Shown piece by piece: positions 6,304 through 58,450 of a DNA stretch of 64,000 nucleotides (the stretch's first letter is position 1; every line of letters starts with the position of its first letter). The DNA is from Ulota crispa (taxonomy: Eukaryota > Streptophyta > Bryopsida > Orthotrichales > Orthotrichaceae). The translations under genes were made by a program, and so were the position numbers. Below the pieces are notes generated by a model. It saw nothing but the letters and a program-made list of their open reading frames with translations. It did no database searches and was not told the origin of the DNA. Where the stretch lies: NCBI GenBank assembly GCA_963920765.1, contig OY987244.1, positions 19,696,358 through 19,760,357 of the forward strand, written 5' to 3'.

Positions 6304-8199
6304 CAGTAGGTATGCTATGCCAGTTCTGTGACCCTCACTCGAGCCTTGGGTGTATAGAGAGCGAATCGTCAATCTCTAATACGGATTCTGTAGCTTGTAG
6401 AAATTCAGGTGAAATTCAGGTGCATATATCCTAAATTTGGGAGAAGGCAACAAATATGTAGCTTTTGCATTAGTTTGTACATTTCTCAGGGAATTTATTG
6501 AAAACCCACTTAGGACAGCATTGTATAATTATGGGAAAACAACGAGCAACAGCATCACTTGCAGTTTTACTGAACAACAAATCACAAAACGAAAGTTTGA
6601 TTCATTACTAATGGAAACCTTTACAACAGTGCTGATCACTGTTAAACTTTGAAGCTTACCACACAAAAGGAAATGACACAACGGTAAGGTACCGGTCTGT
6701 GAACATTGGCAACTGGCTACCACAGCGAGAAAGATTTAAGGAGTCCCTTTTTGATCATTTGGACACCATACGCGATGCATAAAAAATGACGAAGAAGCAC
6801 GTGCCCTTTCAGGCTTTATCCTGGGAGCCGTTAAATGGGGAAAAGAAGTGCTTTTTTAGGCCATTCCATTTGTTTGGTTAATCCATTTTTCACATATTGT
6901 CACTACACTCTTGCATCATTATGACCTAACCTCTCTTTGCATGGAGAGGATTTTCTAATTTGAAAAAGTTTGTATTTTAAACAACAATACAATATAGCTT
7001 TTTAAAACTCTTTTCTGTACAACACTGATTGGCAATAATTTCGCTTGTCAGTTGCCTGAGTGCCAGCCCTTTCGTTCTTGAGCTTAAACCCTGAGGCCCT
7101 GAACGCCCCACAGGACTAAAAGTATCCTCAGAAGATTTCGTCTAATTTTTTGATCCATGCAATTGGAGTAATGGTAATGCGAGCCAAATGTTGTATGTGT
7201 GCCTCTAAAGTCTTAATGGGGTGGAATATCATATGAGGCAAGGTGGCAATTGCAAGTAGCATCTGTAAGTTGTAAATGGTCAATTGGGCAGTCAATATCC
7301 ATTGCAAGCTTTCTTGCGTGTACTTTGAGGTGACAAGGATTGGCTGACACAGGTTCAAGCAAGTTCCAAACCTTTGTTGTATCAGCCCTCATTGACTATG
7401 CTGGTTATTGATTTTTGTGCAATAGCAATTCAAAGCCTTAAAACTTAACATCCAAAAAAGTACGGTCATTAATAATTTACACATATGTGCAAACACATCT
7501 AATCTTGCTACTCACAAAGCTTGAGGTGAATTAGGGGCTTCTCAAATTTTGCAAGAACTAACAAATAGCAACTACTTGCCAAAAATGAGATTTTGTCATC
7601 ACAAGTTGTTTAATTAAATGTTACAATTTCTTATCTTAGAGGTTAGGGGTAGTTGCAAGAATGACTTGTACTACATTCTGTCCCCCTCGCCCTCTATAGC
7701 TTCTTTTTTGCTTATAACTTTTGCAAAATCAGTTATTTTTGCTTCTCCTTTTAAAGCAACGTGCACATGGTAGTTACTAATGTTCAAAAATTATTTGGTA
7801 TTTTTTAAAATTATTTTGCTATTTTTGGGTTGACCCCAATTGCATGTCTATCTTTGCCATTTTGGTGGTTTTTAGTACTATTTTGGGTCCAAAAAAGATT
7901 TGTTAGGGCTATAAATCAAGGATGCTCTTTACAAAGCATAATTACATGCATTTGTAGAAGGATTTTGCAAAATTATGAATTCCATGGCGTCTGCATTGTC
8001 TCAAAGTGGGCATCCTATCTCCCTTCATTAGCAAAATACAGAGAAATTCGTGAGCAAGGCAATTATACCATGTGAATGTGTTCAATGAGTTCTCAAATGG
8101 CCATTTTTTGTTTCAATTTTTTGGTTATTTTTGTAATTACTAAAATTAAAAATATGGCAACATGCAAATTTGGCTAATTTCTTGTCCCCAAGCCTGAAT
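6304..8199. other. Intergenic, AT-rich, no gene seen
   Basis: This follows the MORN stop codon and should include its 3' UTR. Short open frames occur but none has recognisable motifs, splice context or raised GC. Base composition becomes AT-rich after about 6.9 kb. Confidence 0.5.
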
Positions 8200-10700
8200 A
8201 GTACTCATGTAGCGGTGCATGCACTACGTAGTACCATTGGTAGATGACATCCTCTGCAGTTCACTAGCTACACTTCATTTGTTCACCAAGTTCCCGTTAC
8301 TAGTAGTTGGCTTTGTGCCGCCGTTCCTTTGAGCGCAAGTAAAGTCTAGCAGCATCACCACGTCGGACCCTTTTCCATCTGTTTCTTTCTTTGTTTTCGT
8401 TGTCACCAATTCTTCTTCGTTTTTTTTGCGCTTCTAGAGCAGTCGTGCAGTGGGGGGGGGGGGGGGGCTCCAAGCTGTCCTTGCAGCGACGACGCCATGC
8501 CAGCATCGAGGGAGAGGCGCAACGGGCCGCAAATATGATTAGACGTTGAACGCCTATGTCAGGACGCCTAAAGAATGAAGAAGAGGGACAAGCAGCGTCG
8601 CTACTATGAGTCAGAGACGTCAGCTTGCAATGGAGGAGGCTCAATTGGACCCATCACGCGCCACACTCCATCGATGTGGAGCTGAATTGTCAAGAGACCT
8701 TGTGTACTACTTGGAGCAGTTACCAGACGAGGACTTTTGGGCAGCGGTCATGGATATGGTTTTCCAAAATCAAACAGTGAGAATGCTCATTCTAGATTAT
8801 TATCCAACTCCAAAGGACACACAAGCTCAACGCGATATCTTGCAAAATATTTGTCTGAATTTGCAGGCAATGAAGATCCCCCGCTCTTATGGGATGTTGG
8901 CTCGGAAGCGCTCCATTCTAGAAGCAGTTGTATTTGACTAGGACTGCAACTCCAGCAGACTTCACAAGCTCCTAGGCACTCACAAGCACAACGTGGAATC
9001 AGCAACCCGAAGGCTTCAAGAGATCAAACCAAGACCGGCATTTTGTTTCAAACTGCCTTGTAGGAAGAAACACGACGAAGGGGTCGCCAAGGAGGTGCGG
9101 GCCATGGTTGTTACATTGGACCAATTCTAACCCGCTCATCCGTCCAACGCAAATATAAATGGTCAAGGCACAGACACATGTACCTTTTTTTCTTGTATTT
9201 TATTTCAATATGGGTTTAGATACAATCTTGCACTTACGCTAGAACATCCACTTCTTGATTTTAGAGTGGACAACCACCCCATTTGGATCTGTCTGTCCAT
9301 CCGCTTGTCCTGTCCGACAGTCAAATCTTGCCTGATGTAACAACCCTGGTACGGGCCACTGTCACCGCGTGGTGGACCGAAGAGACGAGGGGCAGTCCCA
9401 ATCGGAAGCAAATTTGTAAGAAGCAGCTTGGGCAAAGCTTGTACAAACAACATGCTGCACATTTGCTCATGGAGAGCTAGGTTATTCCAACTCCCAACAT
9501 TTTGGAATGAATTGTCGAATGTTGTATTTCCACTTCAATAATTATTTAGTGCTTCGCTTATTGTTAGCATGAACGTGAAGGTCAAGTTCTCTAGGGAGGT
9601 TTTAGGATATCTATAAGTTGGGCGATGCTTTTGCACTTGTTGAGCAAATGCGTTATATAGGGGTCGTTCTGCGCTTCACGTCATCACACTCTGCACCCAC
9701 CTCCTTTGTTGGTGTTGTTGATGTTGCAAACAAGACCCTACATCTTCTTCTATCATTCATTCCACCGCTGTTCCCCTGGTAGTACACTAAACTTTGCTTT
9801 AGTACAAATTCCTAATGTGTTTGCAAAGACCTTCAATCTCCATGTGCATGCTCAGTTAGACAGTCGAAGGTAATACAGTTATTGGACATGTCCAACCCAT
9901 ACACTGCATGCTAGGAGTGGATCAGATAATACTGTTACTCTCTCTATTCAGTACTAAACCACGTTCAAGGACAATGTTGACCACTTGTTCCATATTACTT
10001 GTTCTAACCCCCATTTCTGAAGAAGATCCAATCCACAAAAGTAGCGTGGACACATGACTGAGTTTTGTATTGTCACTACCAACTGACACGGTCATGTCTT
10101 GTCCTACGTGTACACTAGCACTATGTAGTACACTGTCTCTCCTCCTTCGATATTACAACACCTCCTTCCACCTTTAGTGGTTCCACTCTCTCCTCTGTAG
10201 TACTAAGATCGCAAACAACCACCGTTCCACATCTACTACTGTGTCTTCTAGTACTCTGTAATGAAAGAAGCCCTCACTCCGTATGCATAGATGCCATACT
10301 TATGAGATTGGTGTGCTCACGCACTACACTATGATATACAATACTGTCACTACAATAGTATCCATGACTCTCGAACGCCGTGACAATGCTGTTATCAGTA
10401 CTATAGAGGACTGCAATTTTGTACAAGTACATGTGCATTTGCTCTATTGCATAGTAAGTGCCTCATGCGTTTACCACGTAATACTGTAGAGTTCTATCTG
10501 TTCTGTTAAGTAGCATACACTTATGCTACTTAGAAACTAGGTAATACTATATTCTTGCTAACTACTTCATGCGCCCACCACGTAGTACTATAGAATCTTA
10601 CATGTTCTCTTATATATCATACACTTGTACTATGTGTAAACTAGGTAATACCATTCTGTCGCTACTTTCCAGTAGTAGTACTAAATGTTCTGCATCTACA
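8200..10700. repeat. AGTACT/GTAGTAC-rich zone
   Basis: Short palindromic words (AGTACT, GTAGTAC, TAGTAC) recur, most densely at about 9.8-10.7 kb, far above the rest of the window. Similar words recur at 15.9-16.3 and 22.0-23.0 kb, on either side of the decayed genes. This looks like subterminal or internal repeat DNA of one large element. It contains the first exon of the transposase-like relic at 8606. Confidence 0.4.
8452..8467 (+). repeat. Run of 16 G
   Basis: A homopolymer of 16 guanines sits about 140 bp before the first ATG of the transposase-like relic. It could form a quadruplex or be a sequencing or assembly artefact. Confidence 0.9.
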
Positions 10701-11835
10701 AATTTGCCTAACTGCTAATACCTGTTCCTTGAACACCGTGCCAAGATGGCAGGTACAATTATTCCAACGTTTCCGCCAAAGTCATCTTCATTTTCAAATA
10801 CAAATTTTAGTCCTTCATCAAGTTACGGCCATTCTTTGTAATCCGCTATGAAAAACACAACATCTGTAGCTCCCACCATCACATCCAAGTCCATTTTCTT
10901 CTACAAGCCCTCAATGCTTTTAGGGACCCTCAACATGGGGCACACGTTTCATTCCATTGCAGCTGCCATTGCGGCATTTGCGGGTCTAGTGCTGATAGAA
11001 GATGCCATGTTGGGGCCAGTTAATTTGAGAATGTGACATAGATGTAGATGTCTGTCTTGTGCACAAAAGAAGAGGAGGCCAAAATCCACAACATGAGGTG
11101 TTGATTCATTCAAACGCTTTGAATCAATGCGATGACGCCACTAAATTGTACTGTCCTACTCTTGTACGTACCTGTTACTGACTGTGGGCCTTGCAGGTGC
11201 TTAACCGGATCTTGCAAACAATGCAGGGTGCGAACATTTTGTCTATGTCCCCTTGAAAGAGTTGACGGACCTCACCGTGAAATAAGCTAGAAAAAATTTG
11301 AGTATCAAATCAATAAAGAGGTTGATTCAAACAAGCCCCAATGGAGGATCACAAAGGTGACACAACAGACCAGTTTCTCAATGTTCATGGACTTTCTCAA
11401 GTCAAATTTCTAGGCCTTTGTGCTCCACAACTTATGCGCCTATTGGCAATTTGATTAGGCAAAGCTAGCTAAGGACTCATTGCCCCAAGGTTCAATACTA
11501 ACACACATTGATTTCGCTAAAAATTATTCATTTCAAATTCAGAACAAGATATAGTCTATGTATTACCACTCTACGCAGATCACAATAATGATTCAAGTTG
11601 TTTATTGACTAGAAGTTCTAGAAGACAACAATAACGCAAAACCAATGCAAATGCAAGAGACGCACTACCGGATTTTTGATGACAAAGCACACAATACCAT
11701 GTTTGTTTAACACTGCCTCCTAAAGTACTAGGCGTGGTTGCTTGACCACGGATGCAGTCTAGACATGCACCTCATTTTTAGCAACGACTGCGCAGCTCAA
11801 TACAAAAGTGCTAGGTCCCTATATTTTATTGCTAG

Positions 11836-14120
11836 GTAATGTTGCCTCAACAACCCAACGTAACGTTATTATTCTTTCATAGATGTATCTTTTTAGTTCT
11901 ATTATTTGTAACTGGCTAATGCCTCCGTATGTGCCTCAAATATCAGGTATTCATCTCTTACAATATCGGATTAAGAGGAGTGCGCTTTGGGAATAGGCAG
12001 GGTGTCTTGCTGCAATCGTATGTTGCTGACTAAAATCGTCTTTGGTCTTAATCTTCACTCTTCAGATCTTTAGACTTCAGTCTTCCGTTGGCCTTTCTTG
12101 TGACTGGCTCTAGGGATATAATGGTCAAGGTAGAGATAAGAGCCTAGTAGATACAGGACGGATAGATCAAAACAGCAGACACAAGCTGCCGTCCATATGA
12201 CGGGATCTTAAATTCAAATTCACGATCTGTTGGCCAAAACTTCAGATCGTGAGAACAGAACAAGTCTTGATCATGTGGGTAATCAATCTTACTTTGTCAC
12301 TATAACAATAAATGAGGTTCAATTTGATTTAACTCAAACTATCCGCAACAAGGTTTACAAAACAGAATGGAAATGAATTGACAAACAAGCCTCCAAAACC
12401 GGCTAGGAATAACAAAATCACATCCAACACATACATAAAAAATAAATCCAAAACATTCTTTTTGAAGTCTTCATATCTTCAGATCTTTGAGTTTTTATAT
12501 CTTCAAGTCTTTGTGTTTTAATAAAAACAATAGGGAAAATCACAAATAATAAGTCATAGAAAGGCTACAATTTTCTATCAAGTGCCACAAATGACTCAAA
12601 GATTCAAATACTAAATATAATAGCAATTTCAAAAGCTCTTCTAACTTTTTAACATCTCTTTAAATTTCAAGTCAATCTAAGCTACCATCCAAAAGTTATG
12701 CAGGTTCAAAATAAAGGCTCTTTTTCCTCCTTGCAAACTAAACATTGCCTCTATAAATCTCTATAACTTTTGTTTTACACATCACCCATAGAAATGTGAT
12801 ATTAATTTGAAAAAACAATATCACTAGCTACAGCTTTTAAGATTTTAATTTCAAAATAAAACTTTGTTCAAAAGTTTTAGTCAATCAAAGTATGAGTCTC
12901 AATTTTTTAAAGAGCACCCAAACCTCCAACTTCTATACACTATAACTTCTTGAAGAAGATTCCAAATGAAATGATTGAAGACAATTCAAAAAACTATGAC
13001 AACAAAATATTACTCCTAAAATTTTGAGAAAAAAATTTCATACTATCTACAAGTTGTAACTTTGAAAAGTTTTAGCCTTCTCATAACAAAAGAGCAGCCA
13101 CCTTCAATCCTTCACACTTCCATAACTTTCTCTTTTAAGTTTCAAATCTTGAGTTTAAGAACTATCTAAAAAGCTAAGACTAAGATAAACACTCCTTTTA
13201 AATCTTATTGCAAAATAATATACAGATTATAAACTATGGCTTGTCAAAGTCTCAACTTTTCTTCATAGTTTGGCTTTTTGACTCCAAAATTCAAACATTC
13301 ATAACTTTTACATCACATTCTAAATCAAACTTGCAAATTCATTTTGGAAAGGTAATTACATAAAAAACAAATCTTCTAAATTTCAATTCAAAATTATGTA
13401 TACACAAAAAGTTTTCTTACATCAAAGTTTTGGAATTTCTTCTCTTTTTCCACCAACACTTATACACTAACTTCCAATATACTAAGGAATCTCTCTCCTC
13501 CTTAATTTTGAGCCTATCTAAGGTAGGGAGGTGGAGCACATCAGCCTATATCCTCTCTATCCATATCCAAATCTCACCATAAATGTCAAATCCCTTTTCC
13601 TTTTACACCTTTTCCATTGATTTCTAAACCCTTAATATTTTTTATTCAAACAAAGGCAAAATATATGAGTCTTGCAAAATTTCTAGATAAACATATAAAA
13701 ATGATTAAATTATAAGATAAATACCACTATAAAGTGGCCACATGTCCTTGCGGACATATAATAGAGTCAAACGCTTGTCTTCAGTCGCCAAGTCGTGGAC
13801 TTGGTTGGCTGGAAAAGCGGTCGTTTCTGGCCGCCCGCCGGTCCGGATTCGAACTCCATTGAACTCGTTGAGCAGTGATGGAGGGCCACGGCTTAGCAGC
13901 TAGTGAGATAGGAAATTGGTTTAGCCAATCCGCTACTTACTCCCTTTGAGCTGTGCATGTGATATGACGGCGCAGTGCATTGGAATCTATGGCCGCGGCG
14001 CTATAATTAAACCGTGGTCTTCACCACGACCACCTCTTTTGCCACAACTGTTAATTTATTGAAATTAACACAAACATAAATAAATAGCGAGTATTTACAT
14101 GATGGAGAGATCTCCATCAG
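11836..14120. other. Probable long intron of the transposase-like relic
   Basis: This interval separates two relic exons with compatible phase. It is mostly very AT-rich, with no coding frame recognised, apart from a GC-richer island at about 13.78-14.03 kb. Confidence 0.45.
13781..14030 (-). repeat. Possible tRNA-derived SINE fragment
   Basis: The GC-rich island in AT-rich DNA holds, on the minus strand, a match to the RNA polymerase III B box (GTTCGAATCC, at about 13845-13856). A loose A-box-like word lies about 40-50 bp upstream. It does not fold into a tRNA by inspection. No poly-A tail or target duplication was identified, so this is weak. Confidence 0.2.
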
Positions 14121-15811
14121 GATAATGAGAGGCTATCAATTGATTTGGAACTTCTACGGGTCTGGTCACGGCAAGGAAGAGTGGGATGGTGCTGGCTCTG
14201 TAATTAAAAAAGTACTACGACATGAGCAACTAAGGAATTCAAGTTGGCCCCTCCAAGACGTGCGTAACTGTGTCTCATTTCTGGCGGAAACAATGGGCGG
14301 TGCTGTACCAATGAAGCATGGCTAGATGAGATAAGCAACAAACCCTCAGGTAACTGAAAAGTTTATTTTTAAATTATGATCGCTTTAGGAGGTCCAATTT
14401 TGTTATTGTTAAATTATACCTGTTTGTCAAGATACAAAGAACTTCTCGGACCTATAGTGCCTGAAATCAATTTCACCAGTTTAGTTTCTTTTTAAAAATA
14501 TACTTTGCTAAGGTCATGAATCGACAAGAAAAACAACATAACTGCTCCAGATTCTATAAAAAATAAAAATATATTGCTCAATACTGGTTCCAATCAACTT
14601 CTGATAATGTACAATATCTTTTCTTTTCTTTATAGACAAGGCTGATATTACTTATATAGATGCAATTGTAAGCATAGTTGAAATTAACCAAGTAGACCAG
14701 AGCTGTTACATGTTGAAGAATTCAAAAATACCGGTAAGCACTTTATTAAACAATTGTTGTGGTCGACAATTACAACAAAGCAAGACGACTAAATGAGGTC
14801 TGGAGTCTCCATATCTGAGGTGTCTACCCGCAACATCCTTTTAAACTGCACCCACCACAACTCCCACCCTCCACCACAAAAATAGGAACCACACAAACTA
14901 AGTGTACTACCAGCGATAAGCATTGGCTCTTAGTAGAGCAAGCTACGTTATACAAGGACTAATAGTGATGGTTGTCGTCAAATTAAATGAATGACTACAG
15001 TACTCAATGTTCTATGCTATCAAGCAGCATCTACATACAATATTACTTCAACTTGTGGTTGAAAATTCCGCGTAAGATTGCTAACAAATTGTTGTTCCTT
15101 GCTTGCAGATTGTATCGGTACTTCCATTTGGTTGGCCTCGACGACGTAGATTGCAGCCTTGCGCATGCATGCCGCCCCATACTGGGGTCCTCAAAACTGC
15201 AATCTGTATCCGCACCGGATGCACAAGATCCAACCAAGCTCCTTATTTGCCCTTGGAGTTCTTTTTGCGGGCCATGTCTGGATGAGAACTTTGCTACTTG
15301 CAACCAGCAAGCATACGTTCTTGATTGGAAGGTTTATAAAATTCAGTCAGTAAATATTACTTATACACATGCTGTTCTAGAAACCGATGAAAACGACAAC
15401 AAAGGCAACTGGGAGTACGATAAAGACAAAAGCCACATGGTGAATTTGGTCCAGCCAGGAGACAACTTTGCCATACCTGCAGAAACTAATAACGTCAAAG
15501 GAGTTTCTTTCTACATCCTTCCATGCCAAAGATGGAAGCACCTAGTGGAGCACAACTTCAGCTGTTCTTAGGGCGGAGAATTCAAAATAGGCAACTATGT
15601 AATCACAGGCACTTACTACTAGAAATGGGAAAGATTGGTCCATCAAAACTACATATATTTAAAGGACTCCAGACCAGTTCATATAGACGCGGATATTGTT
15701 CTTGCTTGCAAATTCTAAATGATACCATGTTCACACCAAGTCAAGGGCGGAGATTTAGACTACACATTGCCAAGCAAAAACTTTGACGTTATTACATGCC
15801 CGTTACAATAA

Positions 15812-16270
15812 TACATTGATAACAACTAAATACAAGAGGCTGCAAGTATCTTCATAAGGTTAAGCACATAAAGAAAAATAGTACTTCTCTTTCAAGCACT
15901 TGACAATGTTACAATACATTGTGATATACTAGTTGTATTCCAATAGTACTGCATAATACTACCTAGTCTAGCATAGGATTGTGATTGTTTCCATTCAATA
16001 CTAGAAGTACTAAATACTTGCAAATGTAGGAGCTTCCAACACCAAAAGTATTATACAATGACAATTTCCATCTTTGTGAATCATTAACTCCTATAGCCCT
16101 AGAATAAATAGCCACAGTATAAACATTTCAAAGAAGAGGTTAGAAGTTCCTCTTATTTAAGTTCTGTTTTAATGCACCGAAGCACTTATTGTAGTACAAA
16201 GAGTCTCCGTAGCATTAGCTATGCAAGTACTCCTCTTAGAACAATACTTTTGGCCGCTACGTAGCATCAC
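15812..16270. other. Gap between convergent decayed genes, AGTACT-rich
   Basis: The stops of the transposase-like relic (15811) and the SET relic (16271) face each other 459 bp apart. Several AGTACT and ATACTA words occur at 15.9-16.25 kb. No gene is seen. Confidence 0.5.
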
Positions 16271-17652
16271 TCACTTTTGTCGGCAAAACCAACTATCGCA
16301 AGCGCAAGTGAAGGGGAAAGCAGATGAATCACTTGTGTTGAACTCAACACCATAATCCCACGTCAACTCCTCCCTCCTTGGAATATCCTTGTTTGCAAAG
16401 AAGGTGACTTGCGCTGCATGCAATGACAAAAACTGTAAATTATACTCTAGTACTCATGTCAGTATTATCTACTTTTTTTAGAAATCATCATTAAGGATGC
16501 TTTACCACTTACTCAATAATGGGTTGACTGGGTAGTACGGGTCCAAATTGGCATGTCCATGACATTTACGTCGCCACACCTGCAACCATTACATACAATT
16601 ACTAACTTGAATGATTCGCTCACACATGTATTACTTCAAGGTCATTTTGTTTGCGTACCTATGGTTCATCCACCGGGCTAAGTTAGTGATTTTCCTTGTA
16701 TCAATGCATAGCAACTCGTTATCACCCTTAGATGACTCAGATTGCTACTGTGCATCGAGTTGAAATGAAAATTTACTACTGTCTCTACGTTTGATTAATT
16801 CCGCGTTAGTCATGACTTCTTTGGCACACTCAAAAAGAAAAGGCCCTCTACAAATTGCTTTGAGGGACCTGATGCCCTAATCCTTTTGGGTGCTTGCGTA
16901 GAAAACTTGAAAATGAGCTGGTCATCACTCTATTTGTATGGAAGACAAGAGGCATCTCAAATCTCAGAACAACAAAGAAATGGTAGGTTCACAATTATTC
17001 AAACCTCAAATGGTAATTTTATTCCTCTCTGCATGATATGATTAGCGCAATTAGGGTTACACCGGTAGCTTGAAGAGCACTCATTTATGAATAGTCGCTA
17101 CAAGTGACTAGGACAAGCGCCCTTCCAGTAACCTTTGCATAGGAAGTCATCGGAGCAATGGACCAGGCAATTGTTGCCTCCGTCTCTATAATTTATGAAT
17201 TAATGAACAACATAGTAGACAGTGAATGGCACTCATGCGAAGCCAACATGTCATCTAGTAGATGAAACGAGAAGCAACAATAATCTCAAGTGAATTAAAT
17301 AAGAAAGATTAATTCCAAATACTTCAGAAATGGATACATAGAACTGAGAAATTACCTGCTTGACAATGCGGTCCTTTAGTTGGCTGTCTCTCCCGTACAC
17401 ACACCCTCCACTCAAAGCACAGCAGCAACACTCACTACTTTGATTTGTACAACAGCTTGTACAAGAGCACAGCATTTTTGCCGAAGAAGATGCCCCTACT
17501 ACACTGGACCGTACAGAGGAGTGCAACATAGGGCAGCGGATGTATTTGTAGGAGGACACGTCCCAGTATGGGCCTCCAGGCATGCCACCACGTTGAGAGT
17601 AAAGAATGGGAATGCTCTCAATACCCTGGGAGCAGTCAAGCTTGATACATTC
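16271..17652 (-). pseudogene. Decayed SUVR-type H3K9 methyltransferase (pre-SET, SET, post-SET)
   Basis: Five minus-strand exons are recognisable: 17356-17652, 17005-17185, 16659-16905, 16513-16579 and 16271-16413. The first has a pre-SET start (QGIESIPI, then SYKYIRCP and Cys-rich CSCTSCCTNQSSECCCC). The second has INECSSSYRCNPNC and MQRGIKLPFEV, matching the ECxxxCxC...C...VQRGI end of pre-SET. The third has SET sequence GIRSLKAI, FECAKEVMTNAEL and LARWMNH. Across the next splice (AG|G) comes RCGDVNVMDMPI, completing the NHxC motif and matching the SUVR1/2/4 subtype. The last has FFANKDIPRREELTWDYGVEF and post-SET CACDSWFC, then TGA. In-frame stops are at 17098 (TAG), 16877 and 16745 (TAG, both at expected Trp positions) and TGA at the 16513 end; some exon phases no longer match. 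Intact relatives methylate histone H3 lysine 9. It is spliced, so not a retrocopy. Confidence 0.85.
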
Positions 17653-18433
17653 CTGTGTCCATCACTCATGTTTAAGACAACTAAAACAATGAAGACTCAG
17701 ACTCAATCACAACACAAAACCATGACTTGCCGAACTCAAAAACCAACATAACAAAAAAACAAACGCAATAGAAGTATTCTAGTCAACCACTTACAGCATT
17801 TCTAGAAGGAGTACTTGCACGGTTTGTGAAGACCATGTTCAAAAAGGTTTCCAAACAACAACAAGTTTGTATAGAACTTTGTAGAATGAAGAAGTCAATG
17901 CAAAATTGGAAATCTTTTCCATTTCATGTGAGCCATAAACAGCTAAGAAGGAAAACGACATTGGTGACTAGTACCAAGAGAGCAGCAACCACAATGGGCA
18001 AACCTCATTGGTACGGCCATAAGCTTTATGGCTTAGGGTTGAAGGTGAACCGCCTCAGCATCACTTGCAAATGTGCAGGTCCAACAAGACAAAGCAACGG
18101 ACTCCGTCATTTCTTTGTTACCTTCAAGTTTTGTGCCGCACGGCCCGCCTGAGGCCCTTTCAATTTCAGAGCAGGTGCAGTCGCAATAGTTGGCCTTGAC
18201 GAACGCAAGGAGTGCGTAGGTTTGGGAGATCCACCACTTTGCTACAAAGGGAGGCTAGTCCTGCCCTCCTTGTGGGTGTTGTAGCAGTTGTACATTGGCA
18301 AGGCCAACGGAGCCTTTGCTGGTTCCACCAAAGTCACCTCGCGTAATTCAGGTGTAAAACTATGACCATCAATGCCGTTACCTACAAAACAAAACCTACA
18401 AAAATTGAGATTCATATGCAAGGCCTGGGATGT

Positions 18434-19296
18434 TTATTCAATGTAAAGCAAACCATTGATTCCAAATGCGCTGCCTTTGTTGCATACCTGCAGCGACCTT
18501 CTGCAACACTCAAAGCTCCTCCTCCTTGAAAATTCCATATAGACGTCCTTCCTAGGCACTTGATTAAATCCATGAACGGGCACTCCAAAAGTGTTGGCAA
18601 AGTTACTACAACAACTAATGCTGCGAGGGCCAATGCTGCAGGGGCCGATGACATGGCAGCCTGGTGCGTACCCTTTGATGGCGAATAGCACAAAATGAGA
18701 CGTCAAATTAGAAATCCCATGTACGAGATTTTGATTTAGCAGACAAGAAAAAACACTTTTGGTAATGTATAGACACCCACTTGCGTTTGATTATTCATTG
18801 GCTCCACGTGGAGCACTGTCCACTCCTTGCTCGTAAGCTCCACAGGTGTTTCTTCATCCACGTTCTTGCTTCTTTCAACGACGCCTTCCAACACTATTGC
18901 CAAAAAAGGAGCAAGATCCTCGGTTCCTCTTAATGGTGCTTGTTCAATGCCAACGCCGTGGGAGACGCGAACCTCACCTGCACGTGACCGGAGAGAACTA
19001 GAAGTGAGTGAAGGCAACACGTAGGCTACGTCTGCGCCTACGCTCTTTGACGCGTTTTGCTGACCAAGCCCTCTTGTCATGTCAACCGTCTTGGCGACGG
19101 ACGTTGAGAAAGTGCTCCCGGAAGCCGAGGCTAAACCTAGACCTTCACCAAAGATGCCAGTTCTTGTAATGTACGTGACAAGGTAAACTAATGTTAGATA
19201 AACATTGAGGACAACATTAGTCTTTCTAGAAGGAACTGCAGTGAGGCTTGTGTAGGACAGTATTCGGAAGCAGCATTGCTCAATCCTAAACCACAC
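18434..19296 (-). pseudogene. Unassigned coding remnants upstream of the SET relic
   Basis: Minus-strand frames with raised GC occur here. One, within 18781-19150, is Ser/Gly/Thr-rich and ends ELTSKEWTVLHVEPMNNQTQ before a GT-like border; another lies near 18434-18700. Position and strand suit N-terminal exons of the SET relic, but no domain was recognised and exon joins could not be fixed. They could instead belong to another gene of the same element. Confidence 0.3.
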
Positions 19297-19630
19297 TAGA
19301 AAGCATTACATACTAGTAAGATGTGGTTCATTTCACAAGAGCCAAAAAGCATAGTCTACTTACATGAATATTTGACAAGATCCATAAACCTCAATATTTT
19401 TAAATTGCACTACGTTGACAATCTAGAAACGCACTTCTATTCAAAAAAAGAGCATTTATGTAAGTGGATAGGGAAGAAAGTTGGCAAAAAACTATAAGAA
19501 CCTAGACTCTACATATAGTAACTCCACTCAAGGCAATCAAGTAAAGCACAATCTAAATAGAAGCGACAAGTCTTTTAGGCCATGAAAAGAGAATAAACAT
19601 ATTAAAAAAGCCTCCTTTCCAAAGGAGACA

Positions 19631-21773
19631 CTATGTATCAATGCCTGCATGGCCTCCACTTGAATGGAGGTTGGCAACATCAACTTTGGAGCCCGGTGTC
19701 ATGCTGTCACAAGTGGCAGCGCTACGGTCTTTGTCATTCAAGCCCGCAAATCCGCATGCCTTCAACCACATCGGGGAGACACGACCACATTGTATCAATG
19801 CGCAATCGGAAGTATCCCTAAACCATGACGCAGCACACCAAGGATGGTAGAGGTGTTTGTAGCTGCATATAAGCGCGTGCCAGTAAGGAAAGCCCTCCAA
19901 ATAAACGGCGCACAACAGTGCAGATGGCATCTCGCCAAAATCTAGCTTTGATGGAATATCAAGCCCGGGCGCTGAAAGCGGTGCCGAGTGCATGACGCAG
20001 CAGAGGCGTCCAGCCTACAAGGAAACTTGCTCCATTCGCAAGGCCTCAAGGTATTGACTGGAGGCTTGCAGTTTGCACCTGGTGGTGCATTGCTTAGCCT
20101 CAAGTAACTATATCCGTAGCAGCAAGTTGTCTTGATCAAACAAGCTGTTGCGTAGCATGTCATGCATGGGCTCGTCACCTATAATTACATTGTTCCAACC
20201 TCCACGGTCTCCAACATATGAGAGGTCAAAAGTTGTGCCAAATTTGGCAAATTGCCTAACAAGTTGATCAACCATCCCACTGCAGAAAATGGCCTCTTTC
20301 TCCGCATTCGCGAGTCTGCTTGCAATGTCGTTAGAATCCTCTAGTAGAGTCTCCGCCTTGTCCTCAACTTTACTAAGTACAATCTCCATGTCGGCATTCC
20401 TGCGTTTATGTTGTTGTAGTTAGTTTTTTATTCTAATAGTAAGTGTAGCTGTGAAAACACAAATAAGAGGAGAGGACATCTGAAAATCGCAAGCCATCAA
20501 GAGCAACCGGCAACAACTATCAATGAGCACCTCAATGCAAGCATGTCAAAATCCAACGTCGCCATAGTGAACTCTGACTCCATCGCTTTGTTGTTGTCAG
20601 GCGCCAACTTCACATCACCAAGATGTCGGAAAGGTATGTTCATCGCTGCTTTGCTGTCAACACTTGCCTGGCCCTTCAAAATTGAGTCCACCTTGGCCAA
20701 TATGTCAAACTTGCTATTCTCTGCTATTTGAAGGGGCTGTAGCCAAGTCTTGACTTGAACTCTGTAGTTGCTTTGTTGCAAGTGGTTTGTTTCTGTTGCA
20801 AATTTTGCCCAGTCAATGCTCTCTTCCTTTGTATGCTGCAGCAACTACCCCATAGCATGCTCCTTTGCAACATGATGAGCAGGCGACTCCTTCTGGTAGC
20901 AAAGACAATACAGTGCCTCCAATTCCCGTCGCTGATCAGTAGAAAGTTGCTCAACTAAGCTATAGCCATTGTGACTTTTATTTGGACTAAAGATTGCCTC
21001 CATCTCAAGGACTTGGACGTGTTTACCTACTTTTAGTTTGTGCAAGGTGAAGCCGAAGCTACTCAAGTGGAATTTGTCTTGGAAATCTACATTAGATAGC
21101 ACACAAGGAGGCCTCCTTGTCAGCAGTTGCAGGTAGTTGAGTACCTTCCGGCACTAGTTGGCGGTGTAGGTCCTCTTCTTACGCTTTGGTTGCTGCCCAA
21201 ATTAACAATGAAAGAACAAATGATCAGCAAGGAAACAATGAAACCCTTCAAGTAAACTAAAAACAACATCCAACTAAACTAGATCTGTGTACATGATAAA
21301 GCAACGCGGCAAAAGGCAGTCATTGTTAACATACCTGTAAACTAGCAAGTTTGTCCATGGTGGAGTTACCGTTGTTGTCTTTGTCTTCCTCCGTGTGGTA
21401 ATCATAACCATTGGAGTCACCCGTCCTTTTGCCCCCTTGCTCTTTACCGGCATATGACTAGGTCTAGGAGCTGGTGCTCGATCTTTGTTGATAGCGTCCA
21501 CCACCTAGAATTTGGTAGCTGAATTGTTGGGCGCGACGTGAGGTAAACTGTGCCCGGCCCCGTCTAACCCAAGCAAGCCCTCCGTGACATTGGCACTGCC
21601 ATGTCGCCCAAGAACGGAAGCAGACGTTGATGCCAAAGGTGCTGGCATACACTTCCCCACCACAAAGGAGCCCCTCTCGGAGGAGTTCTTTCTCCTAGAT
21701 TGGAAGACCCTCTTGAAGGTGTATGGAGGCTGACTGAGATCCCTCGCAGCTGCAATTTGCACCCCCCTTGCAC
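19631..21773 (-). pseudogene. Decayed gene with C-terminal Cys/His-rich RING-like domain
   Basis: Minus-strand coding blocks lie at about 21300-21773, 20500-21102 and 19631-20389. The last block is a single frame of 253 codons to the terminal TAG, broken only by TAG at 20108 and 20015. The other blocks contain TAG at 21505 and 20845. The N-terminal part is basic (TTRRKTKTTTVTPPWTN). The middle block is helical and Lys/Glu-rich. The C-terminal block ends in ALICSYKHLYHPWCAASWF, then CALIQCGRVSP, a C..H..C...C..C layout like a RING or treble-clef finger. I do not recognise the family by name. The same kind of stop-codon decay and the adjacency to the SET and transposase-like relics suggest they belonged to one element. 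Confidence 0.5.
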
Positions 21774-23000
21774 TTGCGTTCAGCTTACCTGAAGCGGCCT
21801 ATTTAGCGACGTCATGTAGACCGCCACAAGCATGTAGCAAAACAGTCAGAGCTTTGTGGAATTCACAAGTGGTGGAAACGGGTCAAACTGCCTAGTTAAA
21901 CCAGAAATTCAAGTCATACTTAATCAAGTGAAAAACATCAACATATAAAGAGGAGTGGATTGGCATCTAAATAAAAGAATCCATTGTAACATATTGTACA
22001 AGAGTCTGCATATAGGAGGAATATAGCATAACTATAGTACTTCAAGTAATGTATGAAGTACTATAAATGGTGAGGGGAGGACTATTGCGGTACACATAAT
22101 ATTAGACAAAGTGCTTGAGGAATACTACGTTGTACAAAGTAAAGGTAGGTCAGTACTTTGTAATAGAAACTTGCATACTTGTAAAGAATGTGAGGTGGCC
22201 TATCTACAACAATACAGAGTGCTAAGGATGATAGGCATAACCAACACTAGTGTAACATCTGGTACTATTAGTAGTCAGAGTTTGTTGGAGCATACTACAG
22301 AGCGGACAAAGCAAGTACTAAATGTCGGCGCAAGAGAGGAACCTTCAAAAGAAGTGGAATGGATCACTAAGAACAGTGTGGTAACACCTAATTAATGTAC
22401 CTAGAAGCAACCGGTCAACAAAGGCTTGGTGAAAATAGTATTGCAAGATAGGAATGATAAGTGTGGAAGGCATGTGTAGTGGTGAAGGAAGGTAAACGTG
22501 GTCATTGAACTACTATTACTAGTGCTATCTTGTAAAATATAGCACCTCATAAGATTAGCGCAAATAGTAAGTGCGGGCTAGTACTTCCTATGAAACACAG
22601 TGACGGAGCAAACATTCTTTGTGGACAGAGACCGGCCAACAAGGGAAAGTACTTCGTATTTGTAATGGTGTAAATCATACTTGTTACTATCAAAAGTATT
22701 ACTGAGTGGTACTAAGTCCATTTGAACTCCAAACATGCACATGGCAATGGAAACCTAAAAATGACAAAATCTGCAGTTATCAAGAATTTAACGTCATTAG
22801 GTACCACTGAGCACTTAGTTCATTTGAGGGTACTATCAATTTGTCTTGTACAGCAGACTTAGTAGGGTATGACTGAAACAAAGAACAGACATTACTGCGT
22901 AGGCCTTAAGATCAGGCCCAAAAAAGCAAATGAACTAAATTGGAAGATGCTACAGTGTGCAAGAGTGCTAGTACAGTTTTAAAGCAATTTCCGAAGGACA
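21774..23000. repeat. Second AGTACT-rich zone
   Basis: AGTACT, GTACTA and TAGTAC words recur (for example at 22040-22070, 22150 and 22310-22320), mirroring the zone at 8.2-10.7 kb. A 94-codon plus-strand open frame at 22111-22395 has no recognisable motif. No terminal inverted repeat was found. Confidence 0.35.
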
Positions 23001-26000
23001 TGCTATTTGTTATATAGATTTTTAGGATTGTAGTCTCTAAGCATACTCGTTAAAAAGTAACATTGTGTAAGAAACTTGAATTTTGAGAACAGACTCTGAA
23101 CTTTAGTTAGGTATCCAGGAGAGAAGTGACAAGGATGGGCAGGAAACTAGAGAGTGAAGAAGGGAAGGTTTGAGAGAGTGTGGATGGAACCAAAATTAGT
23201 TACCTCTTACATGGAGAGGGGCCAGGAATTCATGAAAAGTAGGTGAAAGAAAGAACTGGTGACATGTATTAATGATTGGAGGTTCACTTGTTTGTTAGAT
23301 GATAGTACAGACCGTGTGCATTGTAATTTGGCCATTTTCCATTGCATGGGTGGCTAATAAATTTTCATTGTCCCCCCTTGCTTTGTATTAGTCTTATCCT
23401 AATCCCAAAAAAACTGCCTTAGCAACGTAGTTTTTTTTGTAAGGAATATGTAAATCCACCCTAGACAAACACATAGTAGCCTGAATTATAGAATTCAATA
23501 TGTATAATGTGGGATAGAACATTTCCTACAAAAGAGTAAGTCACAATTAAGGGAATGATTATTTGGAGTGATTTAGAATGATTTGCTTCAGAAAATTGGG
23601 GACATAATGAAAGGGAGTACGTATGTCTACGGACTATAGGAATTCTTTGGAGACCCTCTAGGGGGCTTTGTCTCTGTAGGTCCCCATGAACTTCAGAAAT
23701 GGTTCATTTGGTACTAGTTGAATTTATCAAATGCAATATACAGGAAAGAATTCCTTCATATTGCAGCAGTTTTGTTTTTTATCGGAGCTTTCTAGTAGTA
23801 TTGGTTTGTCAATAATGTAATTAAGCAAAAATGCCCTCAACAACTTTGCCCACAAGGAATTTAATAATTTAAAAATAAAAACAATTTGGATGGTCCAAGT
23901 AAAGGAAAGCACTTCATGTGTTGGTGAGAGGTCCCTAAACAATGATAGTAGGAGTTGGACTAATACATATACCCTAAACCACTACCATCAATGTCTGGAG
24001 AATGAGAAGCTAAGAGAATGGAAGAAAAAAAAACCGCACCTAACAGCTACAGTGTTATAGGAAACCCTAAAACCGGCAGTGTAAGACAATCTGCGGGGGC
24101 AACTACAGCCATATGCGACAGGGGTTCTGCAATTGTGGATGCAGCAGGAGTCCGTACAACCTCCACTTTCTTGCTATCAAGAACAATGAAGCATGCAGGG
24201 CACACCGATGACAGTGAAGAGGAAGATTGACTGGAACTCCCTCACGGATAAGTCGTTAGACCACATTCAGTTTCTAGGACACTGCAGAGTCGCCCCTTAA
24301 ACTGGAGCGCGAGCTCCAAATTACTATGTTGGACCTGCTGTAGGCTACTATGGAAACCTTGTAAGGGTATTCTACAGCCAACAACAAAACTTTTTAAAGT
24401 GGAACCCTAAACCTGCTAGCAACAACAGGAATACCAAAAATCAACAATGCACGAGAAGGGTAGCACTGTATTCTGAAACAAGAAACTGCAATGTTTAAAA
24501 CAAAAAGGAAAGTGGGAATGTAGGGTTTAAGGAGGACTTACATCTGCCATTTTTAGAGCAGTTTTGCCGGCAAAGCGCACTGCCGCTTGCAATCCTTGAA
24601 AAAGTAATCACCAGAGGCCAAGAAGGCACCTCCGACCATGCAAGCCTAGGTCCCGCAGGAAAACCGCTCTTAATCCAAAACTTTTGTCCTCTTATAAAAG
24701 GTTAATCAAAGACCCCGTTAGTCGTGAAGTACTCTCCTAGATCCAGTAACCCAAAAGAAACTCACAAGCAAAGTGTTTGTAACTTACTTTCCAAATGTGT
24801 GCAAGGGAAGTCAAACCACAAGCTCCGCTTCACCCCCCAACAACACAAAATGACAATCATAGGTGGCGACCCCTGCAGCGCCACAAAGAAACCTTACAGA
24901 AATGGATGTAATCTAGGGTCGTAGTGGATGCATGATGCGCCACAGCGTGACATGTGCCAGTACATTGAAGAACCCGGAACTTTGAAAAATACCTCTGCAA
25001 CAACACCCCAATTATTTCACGGCACTTGTAGCATTCTAGTTACATCTGGCAAGTAACAGATGGTCCGGATTTGCAGTATGAGGAGAGCAAGCAATACTCT
25101 TAGTACTCCACGTATTAATAGCGATGTAGCCCAAAAAACTCCTTTTTGAGATAGAATCGCAAGGTCATTCTTGTAATGACCCTTAGTTGTTCCCAAATTT
25201 TGCAAGCTATTTTTCTAAATAAGTGTTCCAATGTTTTCAGTGGTCACTTTTTGAGAATCATCCAGATGACTAAGATAGCATTTGAACATGGGTCTTATTA
25301 CTAAATTCTCTTGATATTTCATTGGTAATGTAAACAAGATTCCAGTTATTTCCTAAATGAGTGCATTGTTTGGATACCATAAATATAGCATGAATTTGTA
25401 AAACGATCATTATAAGTGTACTAGTACACACCCCCATACTCTCATGTTTGGACAGCGTACATTTTAGTAAGGAATAAAAATAAATTGGTCATGCAAACAA
25501 GTTTTAATTTGGGATACTTAGCCTAGGTCAGGAAGTAGCATGTTTGTTTTAAATTACTTGCTCAAAACTAGAGATAGGACTTGAGTGCATGGGAGCTTGA
25601 GAAGGACCTCGCACAAGACGTTCTTGTGTTGGTAATGCATACTATTGGCACTTAGGTACAAAATTTATTATGAGATTCAGCAGAAAATATCATCTCAATT
25701 TAAAGGTGGTCTTCTTTATAAAAACGTCTTGCACGGAATTCCTCTCAAACAATGTAGCTTGATAGTATATGACCACATGTGGGCAATGTAAGACGATACA
25801 CCCCAAATCACGTACCACTCAAATAATTAGATTGCACAAATCAATCTAGTTTTCTCAAAACTGTCAAGAACAATGTCCAAACCAATACATATTTGTTGAT
25901 TTAGAATTTGGACTAGTTGATATCTAGAAGGTAATTTAAGTTTTTTAAGAAGGAGATCTCAAATTATGGACTACAAGGAGAATTTATGACACAAAATGGC

Positions 26001-45067: not shown

Positions 45068-45720
45068 ATTGAAACAAACACAACAAAAGCATTGTCTTAT
45101 AGGACATGCAATATTCCGTGAAACGTTGGCACCTTTCACCAAGTGACCGGTTCATGTCTTTGGCTGTCCCTTCACCACTCCCGCCATAGCAGGGTCTCCA
45201 ACCTCCCAATCCTTCCGCCATTTCAGATGGCAACATGCGACCAACCTCGATTGCAACCAATCCATGCGCCAAAAGATTCACTTTCGTTGAGAAGACTGCA
45301 CGCGATCGGATTCCACGGCAATTGCAGCATCTTAACAAACAAGTCATATACCTGCTAATTTTTGAGGCATTTCCCAAGAACAAGCAAGAAACGGATTTCC
45401 GGTCTTCAGGTAAGTGTTCTTTCCCTTGAATATTGCACCCGCAGCACTCAAAACACTGTCAAACTTTGAAACTGTGCAATCTAGAAGGGAATAGAAGGTT
45501 GTATCTGTAAGAAGGGCGTGTTTAAAATTGGGACATACAACGTAGACTGGCTTAGATTTGAGGTTTCAGATGGGCAGCTAGAAAAGTGCCTATCTCTTGA
45601 AATTCCGCCATTTAACGATCGATTGTCAGAATATAGCACAATGCTAGAGCCACCAGCAGAGATGGCATTGCAGGTTAGAGCAGGGCTATAGAGCCTTTAA
45701 TTGAGCAGACAGAATCTAGA
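45068..45720. other. GC-richer island, no gene established
   Basis: Plus-strand frames of 60-70 codons occur, one ending at a good donor-like CAG|GTAAGT at about 45408-45413. It may be a remnant of the retroelement whose protease follows, or an upstream exon. No motif was recognised. Confidence 0.3.
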
Positions 45721-46452
45721 ATGAAGAACACAGCAGAGGAGAATCCACCGAGTACTGCAGTGTGCACTCTATGTAAAACACTAAACAGACCCTCACACAA
45801 ATGTTGTTTGCAAAGACTATGGAAACACGTCGAAGACACCACCAAAATGGAAACGACCATGTCTATGGCAGCTGCCAATAACCGGCCGAAGAAGGCAACG
45901 AGCGTCACGCGCATGCTGCCCGTGAAGGCGCACCCCATGAGCAGGCACGGCATCAAGCCGACCTCGACGTGGATGGTGGAATTTGGCAACAACACCACGA
46001 CGAAGCCTGAAGAGAGTGAGGATGAGGAGCAGAGCTTCCAGAGCTGGGAGCACATGAAGCTGCGGGGGAGGGTGATGACCAAGGACGTGATGGTGCTCAT
46101 CGACTCAGGGTGCACGCACAACTTCATCAACTCCAAAGTGGTGAAAGCGCTGGGGTTGAAGCCCACGGCACTGGATCCCTACGTGGTGCACTTGCCGGAT
46201 GGCAGCAACCGGCTGTGGAACCGGCAAGTGAAGAATGTGCCGCTTCGGATGCAGACGTACTACGATCTGCTCACGTTCGGGATCATGGACCTGGCGCACA
46301 TTGACGTCATTCTCGGGCAGCAGTGGCTGTTTGCCAAAGACCCTAGCATCTCCTTCCGCAAGCACACCGTGGAGCTGGACCACAATGGCAAGCGCCACAA
46401 GCTTGTTGGGGAGAAGGGTCTCCCTGACGCAGCTATGGTCACCGGTTTTTGA
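45721..46452 (+). CDS. Stand-alone retropepsin-like aspartic protease, Ty3/gypsy type (243 aa)
   Basis: An uninterrupted frame of 243 codons with much higher GC than its surroundings. The catalytic loop VLIDSGCTHNFI lies near residues 128-139 and the second conserved block DVILGQQWL near residues 197-205, as in the gag-pol protease of plant Ty3/gypsy retrotransposons (RVP_2 type). A Cys/His cluster near the N-terminus is not a proper zinc knuckle. No reverse transcriptase, RNase H or integrase follows within the next kilobase, and no LTR pair was found. It is either a truncated retroelement or a captured protease gene. The ATG at 45721 is the first in the frame; an upstream spliced start is possible. 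Confidence 0.75.
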   Translation: MKNTAEENPPSTAVCTLCKTLNRPSHKCCLQRLWKHVEDTTKMETTMSMAAANNRPKKATSVTRMLPVKAHPMSRHGIKPTSTWMVEFGNNTTTKPEESEDEEQSFQSWEHMKLRGRVMTKDVMVLIDSGCTHNFINSKVVKALGLKPTALDPYVVHLPDGSNRLWNRQVKNVPLRMQTYYDLLTFGIMDLAHIDVILGQQWLFAKDPSISFRKHTVELDHNGKRHKLVGEKGLPDAAMVTGF

Positions 46453-57559: not shown

Positions 57560-58450
57560 AGATTCCAAAAAGGTTCTTGAAAATTCTTAGAGATTTTCAA
57601 AGATTTTTTGAATTTCAAAAAAGATTCTCAAAAGATTCCCAAAGATTCTCAAAGATTCTCAATTGTTCTCAAACATTCTCAAAGATTCCAAAATACTTGA
57701 AAAGATTCTCAAAGATTCCAAATGATTCTCAAAGATTCTCAAAGATTTCCAAAGATTCTTGAAGATTCCAAAGAGATTTTTAAAGATTCTCAAAGATTCT
57801 CAATTATTCTCAAACATTCTTGAAGATTCCCAAAAAAACTTGAAAAGATTCTCAAAGATTCCAAAAGATTCTCAAAGATTTCAAAAAGATTCTCAAAGAT
57901 TCTCAAAGATTCTCAAAGATTCTTGGAGATTCTCAATTGTTCTCAAACATTCTCAAAGATTCCAAAAAACTTGAAAAGATTCCAAAAGATTCCAAAAGAT
58001 TCTCAAAGATTCCAAAAAGATTCTCAAAGATTCTCAAAGATTCTCAAAGATTCTCAATTGTTCTCAAACATTCTCAAAGATTCCAAAAAAACTTGAAAAG
58101 ATTCTCAAACATTCCTAAAAGATTCTCAAAGATTCTCAAAGATTCTCAAAGATTCTCAATTGTTCTCAAACATTCTCAAAGATTCCAAAAAAACTTGAAA
58201 AGATTCTCAAACATTCCTAAAAGATTCTCAAAGATTCTCAAAGATTCTCAAAGATTCTCAATTGTTCTCAAACATTTTCAAAGATTCCAAAAAAGCTTGA
58301 AAAGATTCCGAAAGATTTCTAAAGATTCATGAAGATTCCTAAAAGATTCTCAAAGATTCTAAAATCTCAAAAAGATTCTTAAATATTCTTAAAAATCCTG
58401 AAAAGATTTTCAATGATTCCCAAAAGATTCTTGAAGATTCTCAAAGATTC
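57560..58450 (+). repeat. AAAGATTCTC satellite-like array with a higher-order unit
   Basis: About 890 bp built from a 10-11 bp motif AAAGATTCTC with variants. A marker word CAATTGTTCTCAAACATT (or CAATTATTCTC) recurs with ATT(G/A) at 57662, 57804, 57936, 58057, 58159 and 58261, so spacings are 142, 132, 121, 102 and 102 bp; the last two units are nearly identical. Open frames rich in Lys, Phe and Ser across it are a by-product of the repeat. Confidence 0.95.

Follow-up and report, generated by a model that had tools for sequence, protein, structure and literature searches.

A decayed SUVR-type SET gene in Ulota crispa probably belongs to a three-gene DNA transposon

Is the decayed histone methyltransferase gene that lies among transposon remains in Ulota crispa a dead host gene, or the cargo of a transposon? 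The locus is part of a stretch of 64,000 nucleotides (C3:19696358-19760357, hereafter the window) of the Ulota crispa assembly, whose 157 contigs (274.8 Mb) constitute the genome searched here. An initial annotation, made from the sequence alone, described a SUVR-type gene for a histone H3 lysine 9 (H3K9) methyltransferase, a transposase-like relic facing it and a third decayed gene, and suggested that the three may form one unit. Our analysis supports this proposal. The window very probably contains a DNA transposon of the cut-and-paste type that carried three genes and is now dead, and the existence of a transposon with a SET gene under selection is close to certain.

The element spans positions 7647-25182 of the window, a length of 17.5 kb that includes two nested insertions. 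It has imperfect inverted ends of about 20 bp and a 4-bp target-site duplication (TSD). The SET relic does lie at 16271-19296, where it was initially placed, but the unit to which it belongs is far longer. A DDE-like transposase gene on the forward strand is followed by the convergent SUVR-type SET gene on the reverse strand; a RING-H2-like gene, also on the reverse strand, lies upstream of SET. The closest copy, on contig C7, is 83–89% identical and aligns with window positions 7647 to 25181. At least one insertion, about 29 kb long, has since interrupted this copy. No match between the two copies continues beyond 7647 and 25181 within the flanks fetched.

The left terminal inverted repeat (TIR; GGGTAGTTGCAAGAATGACT, 7647-7666, forward strand) pairs with the right TIR (25163-25182, reading GGGTCATTACAAGAATGACC on the reverse strand). 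The resulting imperfect inverted pair, GGGTAGTTGCAAGAATGAC / GGGTCATTACAAGAATGACC, is flanked by identical TTAG duplications at 7643-7646 and 25183-25186. In the C7 copy the flanking duplication is TCAT, with the right end taken one base shorter, and in a copy on C4 it is TTGT; 4-bp TSDs are present in 3/3 copies with both ends located by homology (window, C7 and C4). The left TIR is found in 8/9 copies with a left flank fetched, the C4 copy included, and its first letters are altered in three of these eight. Locus L031 has no left TIR in its fetched left flank. The TIR core GGGTGATTGCAAGAA occurs exactly 970 times genome-wide, with no occurrence of the reversed control, indicating a large population of related ends; one such end sits in an insertion inside locus L021. 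The shared terminal repeats that the initial annotation proposed to look for, together with the TSDs, bound the unit.

The 970 cores far outnumber the SET-carrying loci found (for example in the first 3.1 Mb of C1 and at L021:3700-4430), which suggests that many are probably non-autonomous relatives. At least two types of TIR end, AAGAATGAC and AAGAAACAC, can be distinguished.

DNA searches place the pre-SET exon at 17 sites, the transposase C-terminal block at 14 and the third gene at 22, the window included. In the 16 other SET loci, which were fetched as L009-L024, blocks matching window 10.75-11.84, 14.1-14.3, 15.1-15.8, 16.25-17.7 and 19.6-21.2 kb recur in one order and orientation throughout, with some blocks missing in some copies. 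L012 contains no transposase match inside its 10 kb, and in L011 and L021 the third gene is outside the stretch fetched. Three further loci (L037-L039) have transposase matches without a SET match at the DNA level, yet contain SET exons at the protein level. The window family (T1) comprises 20 loci, including the window, on eight contigs (C1-C7 and C10), mostly 64–75% identical to the window in DNA. SET is present in 20/20 of these loci, the transposase in 19/20 and the RING-like gene, not seen at the C3:33.02M locus, in 19/20. A SET gene that is single-copy or syntenic with a host SUVR gene in relatives, together with transposase copies that lack a SET neighbour, had been named initially as the outcome that would contradict a unit; we find 20 loci in one clade, most of which keep the gene order.

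A wider search extends the arrangement beyond T1. The transposase query P0005 gave 88 genome matches, from which 76 rows were kept, yielding 54 transposase loci; the L011 SET protein gave 148 matches and 63 kept rows, yielding 61 SET loci. These counts are lower bounds because only the best candidates were scored. A convergent SET lies within 12 kb at 44/54 transposase loci, 14 of the window family and 30 others. The 17 SET loci without a P0005 match comprise six of the window family (the window included), four host-like loci and seven remaining ones; in the six, a decayed transposase is seen by other searches in all except L012. A RING-like match upstream of SET, on the same strand and at most 9 kb away, is found at 19/20 T1 loci, 15/37 other SET loci and 0/4 host-like genes. 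Of 50 RING rows, 46 were used and the remainder were second pieces; 12 of those used do not adjoin a SET.

The pre-SET/SET/post-SET part of the gene lies at 16276-17656 on the reverse strand. Its five exons lie at about 17354-17656, 17006-17199, 16656-16910, 16511-16577 and 16276-16411, with ends accurate to a few bases only. The relic retains ELTWDYGVEF, CACDSWFC and an NHRC motif split by an intron between NHR and CGDVNVMDMP, and contains 3 in-frame stops in 307 aligned codons. A spliced, decayed gene with these motifs is what had been annotated. Pfam matched SET only (E 8.4e-12); pre-SET and post-SET were recognised by motif and alignment. By sequence, the best PDB match is EHMT2/G9a (E 1.4e-18), with a weaker match to SUVH6 (5.1e-9). 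The tyrosine of ELTWDY is invariant across the 10-row alignment A1. The pattern NHRCxDAN/ELTWDYG is in agreement with both host-like SUVR loci in the genome and, presumably, with SUVR4. The predicted protein, with its pre-SET, SET and post-SET regions and its SUVR affinity, is thus of the SUVR type, and its sequence places it in the H3K9 methyltransferase class.

One or more conserved exons at 18740-19200 on the reverse strand, with the motif LTxEEWSVLHAxPM..QVGxYSLPKV, probably encode the N-terminus of the same protein, to which they were assigned by position only. In tblastn searches they are matched in 16/16 copies (L009-L024), the weakest best E being 0.002 (L023). Pfam found no WIYLD domain in the one N-terminal piece scanned (P0003), the N-terminus being decayed and incompletely assembled. 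Searches of a set of 5.8 billion protein sequences gave no match at E 0.001, either with the window read-through (142 candidates) or with the 10-row SET alignment (402 candidates), and no SET relative outside the Ulota crispa genome could therefore be demonstrated.

Five coding blocks, one of SET, two of the transposase and two of the third gene, are under purifying selection between copies. We calculated the ratio of nonsynonymous to synonymous substitutions (dN/dS) pairwise between copies by the Nei-Gojobori method, using pairs with defined dS. The SET median is 0.16 (16 copies, 120 pairs, 105 defined, all <1); L012 was dropped, and eight of the codons counted beside exon 4 are intronic. The medians in the shifted frames are 1.06 and 1.08, and the coding signal initially read in the relic goes far beyond chance. 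The transposase core and C-terminus both have a median of 0.108 (44/91 and 52/120 pairs defined, all <1), while the RING exon of the third gene has 0.18 (38/105 defined) and its other exon 0.16 (9/45 defined), again all <1. The many pairs with undefined dS indicate near saturation at synonymous sites. For the window and L009, which form the closest pair, dN/dS is 0.64, as would be expected of recent decay.

Are the genes also inherited together? In FastTree trees of the 14 copies with both genes, SET and transposase have 11/11 splits in common, two deep ones being poorly supported, while 2000 label shuffles reach 4 common splits at most. The SET and transposase distances correlate at 0.72 (p 0.0001), and those of SET and RING at 0.79. 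The agreement of trees and distances indicates that SET and transposase have been inherited and kept as a unit, most likely together with the third gene. Selection on SET and its common history with the transposase further indicate that the methyltransferase was of use to the element during the active life of its lineages, and argue against a hitch-hiking fragment.

Four loci look like host genes: two SUVR loci with open exons (L049 and L050), situated away from any transposase locus, and a pair of SUVH-like genes (L047 and L048) whose open frames measure 598 and 648 amino acids. We built a tree of 28 SET domains with 16 T1 rows and four and three rows of two further groups, for which the names T2 and T3 are coined here and which are sampled by 4 and 3 SET loci; the partial loci L051 and L052 were excluded. 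T1, T2 and T3 each form one group (support 100/99 or 100/100). The phylogeny that had been proposed initially thus separates multi-copy groups from the two host-like SUVRs, yet the transposon SETs and these two share one side of a branch (100/99), opposite SUVH and G9a. T1, the host-like SUVRs and those T2 and T3 loci that were read all have the NHRC intron in an identical position, which points to capture as DNA and not through RNA. In such an event, the element lineage would have acquired a host SUVR gene with its introns included.

The SET exons are open in the three T3 loci read (L040-L042). T3-type loci contain a second RING-like match about 9–10 kb further out on the SET strand (C7:173-192k, C3:3525-3545k, C11:3765-3784k, C9:18893-18912k and others), suggesting that T3-type elements may measure at least 20 kb and carry two RING genes. 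Two loci of another SET-transposon lineage, C11:5575-5584k and C11:6137-6145k, have identical or near-identical match scores and are probably a recent duplicate pair.

The decayed, spliced transposase gene covers 8579-15815 on the forward strand, with blocks conserved in T1 copies. Its pieces, whose ends are approximate, are the N-terminal exons (8579-9480), the core (about 10749-11840), a segment at 14141-14320 and the C-terminal exon (about 15100-15815); the N-terminal exons were assigned by eye against P0008. The relic first noticed opposite SET is real transposase, but it represents the C-terminal exon, and the core lies outside the block then recognised. We accordingly rejected the 15.1-15.8 kb block as the entire transposase. 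Its homologues are P0005, P0006 and P0008, the last from Ceratodon purpureus, and the assignment as a DDE/RNase H-like transposase includes the fold of P0005 among its evidence; a Foldseek search by itself found nothing at E 0.001. At curated cut-offs, no Pfam family matches the transposase or the third gene, and no Harbinger-type Pfam match is present in P0005, P0006, P0008, P0011 or P0012. P0005 has a sub-threshold match to Zea_mays_MuDR in Pfam (E 0.13, 12.4 bits, cut-off 20.8).

The third gene, annotated from the start as a decayed gene on the SET strand, is real and is located upstream of SET at 19631-21800 on the reverse strand, as judged by dN/dS and conserved position. It comprises a coiled-coil-like part, recognised by eye, and a RING-H2-like cluster of Cys and His residues with the pattern C-x2-C ... 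C-x-H-x2-H-x2-C ... C. Its Pfam RING matches fall below the curated cut-offs, and the window copy has already lost one ligand Cys.

The initially reported AGTACT-rich zones are a property of the element: 25 sites occur in its 15.4 kb, compared with 7 in the 46.5 kb of the window outside. When the element is shuffled 200 times with its dinucleotides preserved, it contains 4.2 sites on average and never more than 9. AGTACT/TAGTACTAY clusters are located before the transposase core (about 9950-10682), between transposase and SET (15880-16454) and beyond the third gene (about 22036-22653), and a subterminal TAGTACTAY site is found at 7874, +227 from the left end. Noncoding sequence of the window element has 2.41 sites per kb and coding sequence 0.34 per kb, with 2/25 sites in the latter. 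Among 8-mers occurring at least 40 times in 16 T1 loci, AGTACTAC and AGTACTAT rank highest, at 14.5-fold and 9.3-fold over a first-order Markov expectation; AGTACT density per T1 locus ranges from 0 (L012) to 2.0 per kb. We checked 14 termini at the start of C1, the first-listed TIR-core and 9-mer rows. TAGTACTAY lies at most 1 kb inside the TIR core in 14/14, often near +226 and +665, and outside it in 1/14. Genome-wide, TAGTACTAY occurs 8890 times and its reversed control 7267 times, a modest excess only.

The five blocks contain 227 stops, most of which replace Q, W or R, mainly as TAG for Q (61) or W (47) and as TGA for R (22), and 28 frame-breaking indels. On the window and C7 lineages, C-to-T rates are 0.20 and 0.27 at CG, 0.21 and 0.14 at CHG, and 0.11 and 0.07 at CHH, while the transition rate at A/T is 0.04. 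The CG/CHG bias leaves the copies with what looks like a scar of CG and CHG methylation. Most stops arose by C-to-T (G-to-A) changes, which are fastest at CG and CHG sites, and indels that break the frame are few. A changed genetic code, with TAG read as Q, was rejected, as W and R are also replaced by stops. It is further opposed by the 61 CAG-to-TAG changes (213 CAG left), which far exceed the 15 CAA-to-TAA changes (449 CAA left), an excess that fits decay by CHG/CG methylation.

How does the element compare with known systems? HarbingerS and MuDR families of Phytophthora carry a SET histone methyltransferase gene (Kojima & Jurka 2014, as cited in PMC12730594). Going by that citing description, they resemble our element as DNA transposons with a SET histone lysine methyltransferase gene, but have oomycete hosts and Harbinger or MuDR transposases. 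In contrast, the element described here has a DDE-like transposase without a Pfam family, 4-bp TSDs, a plant host, a SUVR-type protein and an added RING-H2-like gene. Harbinger TSDs are typically 2–3 bp (PMC3627910), unlike the 4 bp found here. Sola2 elements have 4-bp AT-rich TSDs and TIRs of 12–13 or 21 bp, and some have captured Fanzor genes (PMC3627910). The Sola superfamily is thus similar in having a transposase, short TIRs, 4-bp TSDs and extra cargo, a comparison of descriptions and not of transposase sequence. Fungal DNA transposons carry TET/JBP dioxygenases (PMC12730594), likewise a chromatin- or DNA-modifying cargo, differing in host and in the oxidation of 5-methylcytosine.

VANDAL elements, which are Mutator-like elements (MULEs), encode the anti-silencing protein VANC, and VANC21 has the motif YAGTATTAY in C- and T-types (Hosaka et al. 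2017, PMC5735166). As plant DNA transposons with an accessory chromatin gene and short motifs amassed in noncoding zones, they resemble the element described here. TAGTACTAY, with TAC and TAT endings, recalls the VANC21 motif, its binding being putative here. VANDALs differ as MULEs, and the excerpted text does not describe VANC as a methyltransferase. SUVR4 is an H3K9 enzyme that can bind ubiquitin and has an N-terminal WIYLD domain (PMC7218100), to which the scanned piece P0003 has no match. Our literature search, which covered the top-ranked part with most subscription journals and Repbase Reports outside its scope, recognised no plant DNA transposon with a SUVR-type gene, and such an absence is unproven. 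SETMAR is a domesticated gene, a primate SET-mariner fusion. It likewise joins SET to transposon genes, but is not the cargo of a multi-copy transposon family.

What would the methyltransferase do for the element? The chances that it acts at the element's own copies appear about even. A DNA-binding element protein, either the transposase or the third-gene product, would read the TAGTACTAY sites, and the SUVR-type enzyme would alter H3K9 methylation on these copies, changing their silencing or transposition competence. In a counter-silencing role, for example, H3K9 could be shifted away from me2, the state by which CHG methylation is maintained. Such a role is conceivable and somewhat more likely than self-restraint, but we would not expect it to prove correct. 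The RING-type protein may partner a ubiquitin-responsive SUVR-type enzyme. More tentative is the full combination, a VANC counterpart at the histone level in which an element protein sits on TAGTACTAY, the enzyme shifts H3K9 off the state that feeds CHG methylation and the RING protein possibly helps; at least three deep families of such elements in one genome would then represent a broad, old lineage.

Alternatively, the element could apply repressive H3K9 methylation to itself, limiting copy number and host damage, with TAGTACTAY serving as transposase-binding sites only. Such self-restraint is in line with the silencing of invasive, repetitive sequences by H3K9 methylation (PMC7218100), with C-to-T decay biased to CG and CHG, as expected of CG/CHG-methylated DNA, and with the motif at most 1 kb inside all 14 termini checked. 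The host, however, would methylate dead copies anyway, and motif clusters are also present in internal noncoding zones. We regard self-restraint as an unlikely, if plausible, function. For the motif itself, a subterminal transposase-binding role is as likely as a VANC21-like one.

SET enzymes can have non-histone substrates. The protein might thus act on a host silencing factor that is not a histone, or on the chromatin of the transposition complex or target site, but the pre-SET/SET/post-SET architecture and the SUVR affinity point to H3K9, and we consider such targets less probable still.

Several observations weigh against a selected SET gene that works for the transposon in this manner. 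A silencing mark is an odd cargo if escape is the aim, and the subterminal TAGTACTAY sites may simply be transposase-binding sites. In-frame stops are found in all 17/17 T1 SET copies scored (2–9 each), and in L020, which is outside alignment A1, Cys replaces the active-site Tyr. No convergent SET lies within 12 kb at 10/54 transposase loci; two of these ten have no SET in the 4 kb read downstream, one of the two being truncated inside the transposase. The dN/dS values are rough because of the near saturation of synonymous sites. When each close pair is reduced to a single copy, the SET–transposase correlation falls to 0.41 (p 0.047), and the RING-exon tree (13 copies) agrees in close groups and not in others, for example joining L018 with L019 at 0.81. 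Placing all transposon SETs together is not rejected (approximately unbiased test, p 0.378), which is no proof of a single origin. Finally, a TSD is shared by 0/8 inverted TIR-core pairs chosen by proximity. These were probably mispaired, since most resemble left ends that come from two separate elements; the outcome therefore carries little weight, but gives the TSD claim no help.

It could be argued that no transposon is involved and that a host block containing a DDE-derived gene, a SUVR gene and a RING gene spread by segmental duplication, without transposition of its own. The conserved gene order and the age of most copies (mostly 64–75% identity) are compatible with this, but the window and C7 flanks do not match beyond 7647 and 25181, TIRs and 4-bp TSDs bound 3/3 copies and 970 exact TIR cores exist, which together make it very improbable. 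Even less credible is a host SUVR gene that died beside transposon relics unrelated to it, the ordinary surroundings of a heterochromatic pseudogene, despite the clear host SUVR type of the SET protein and the other repeats in the window. Twenty loci on eight contigs have nearly all the same arrangement, TIRs and TSDs bound the element, the SET and transposase trees are identical and the genome has separate SUVR loci (L049 and L050). Of the alternatives raised initially, both this one and capture in one copy only are, for practical purposes, excluded by the multi-copy unit. An endogenous viral element derived from a large DNA virus with SET and RING genes would account for the large size, the several genes and the chromatin-enzyme cargo, but is just as improbable given the spliced genes, the intron common with host-like SUVRs, the TIR/TSD structure and the lack of a match in one IMG/VR scan with six 8-residue P0005 patterns, no capsid or polymerase search having been made.

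A three-gene DNA transposon with a SUVR-type gene has wider implications. Transposons with chromatin enzymes reveal which host step counts in the silencing arms race, and this lineage has kept, under selection in several deep branches, an enzyme class that hosts use against transposons. Why a transposon would write H3K9 methylation is a question that open relatives, in other bryophytes or in less decayed lineages, could answer. Our results also suggest that plant SUVR gene surveys may count transposon genes as host genes.

Two later insertions interrupt the window element. A piece of about 245 bp at 9103-9348, absent from the C7 copy, belongs to an abundant repeat found at 36 places at 86–90% identity among the 44 matches listed. 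Another element of about 2.2 kb, absent from L010 at the same point, is inserted in the transposase gene at 11963-14140 and contains zero AGTACT sites. Its relatives are found in L013 and L015 and, in part, in L022. It thus recurs, whole or in part, near three other T1 copies (L013:8074-10000, L015:7868-10000 and L022:1-472), and the L013 version contains a short tandem repeat, visible as a repeated peptide.

Elsewhere in the window, an open reading frame of 162 amino acids at 57844-58329 on the forward strand has scattered weak matches (PARP12 winged helix, E 1.1e-8, OSCP and others); the PARP12 match has no individual stretch that passes, and the composition of the frame is perhaps biased. 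An open reading frame at 45679-46449 on the forward strand encodes a retroviral-type aspartyl protease (RVP_2, E 5.9e-12) and represents a piece of a retrotransposon.

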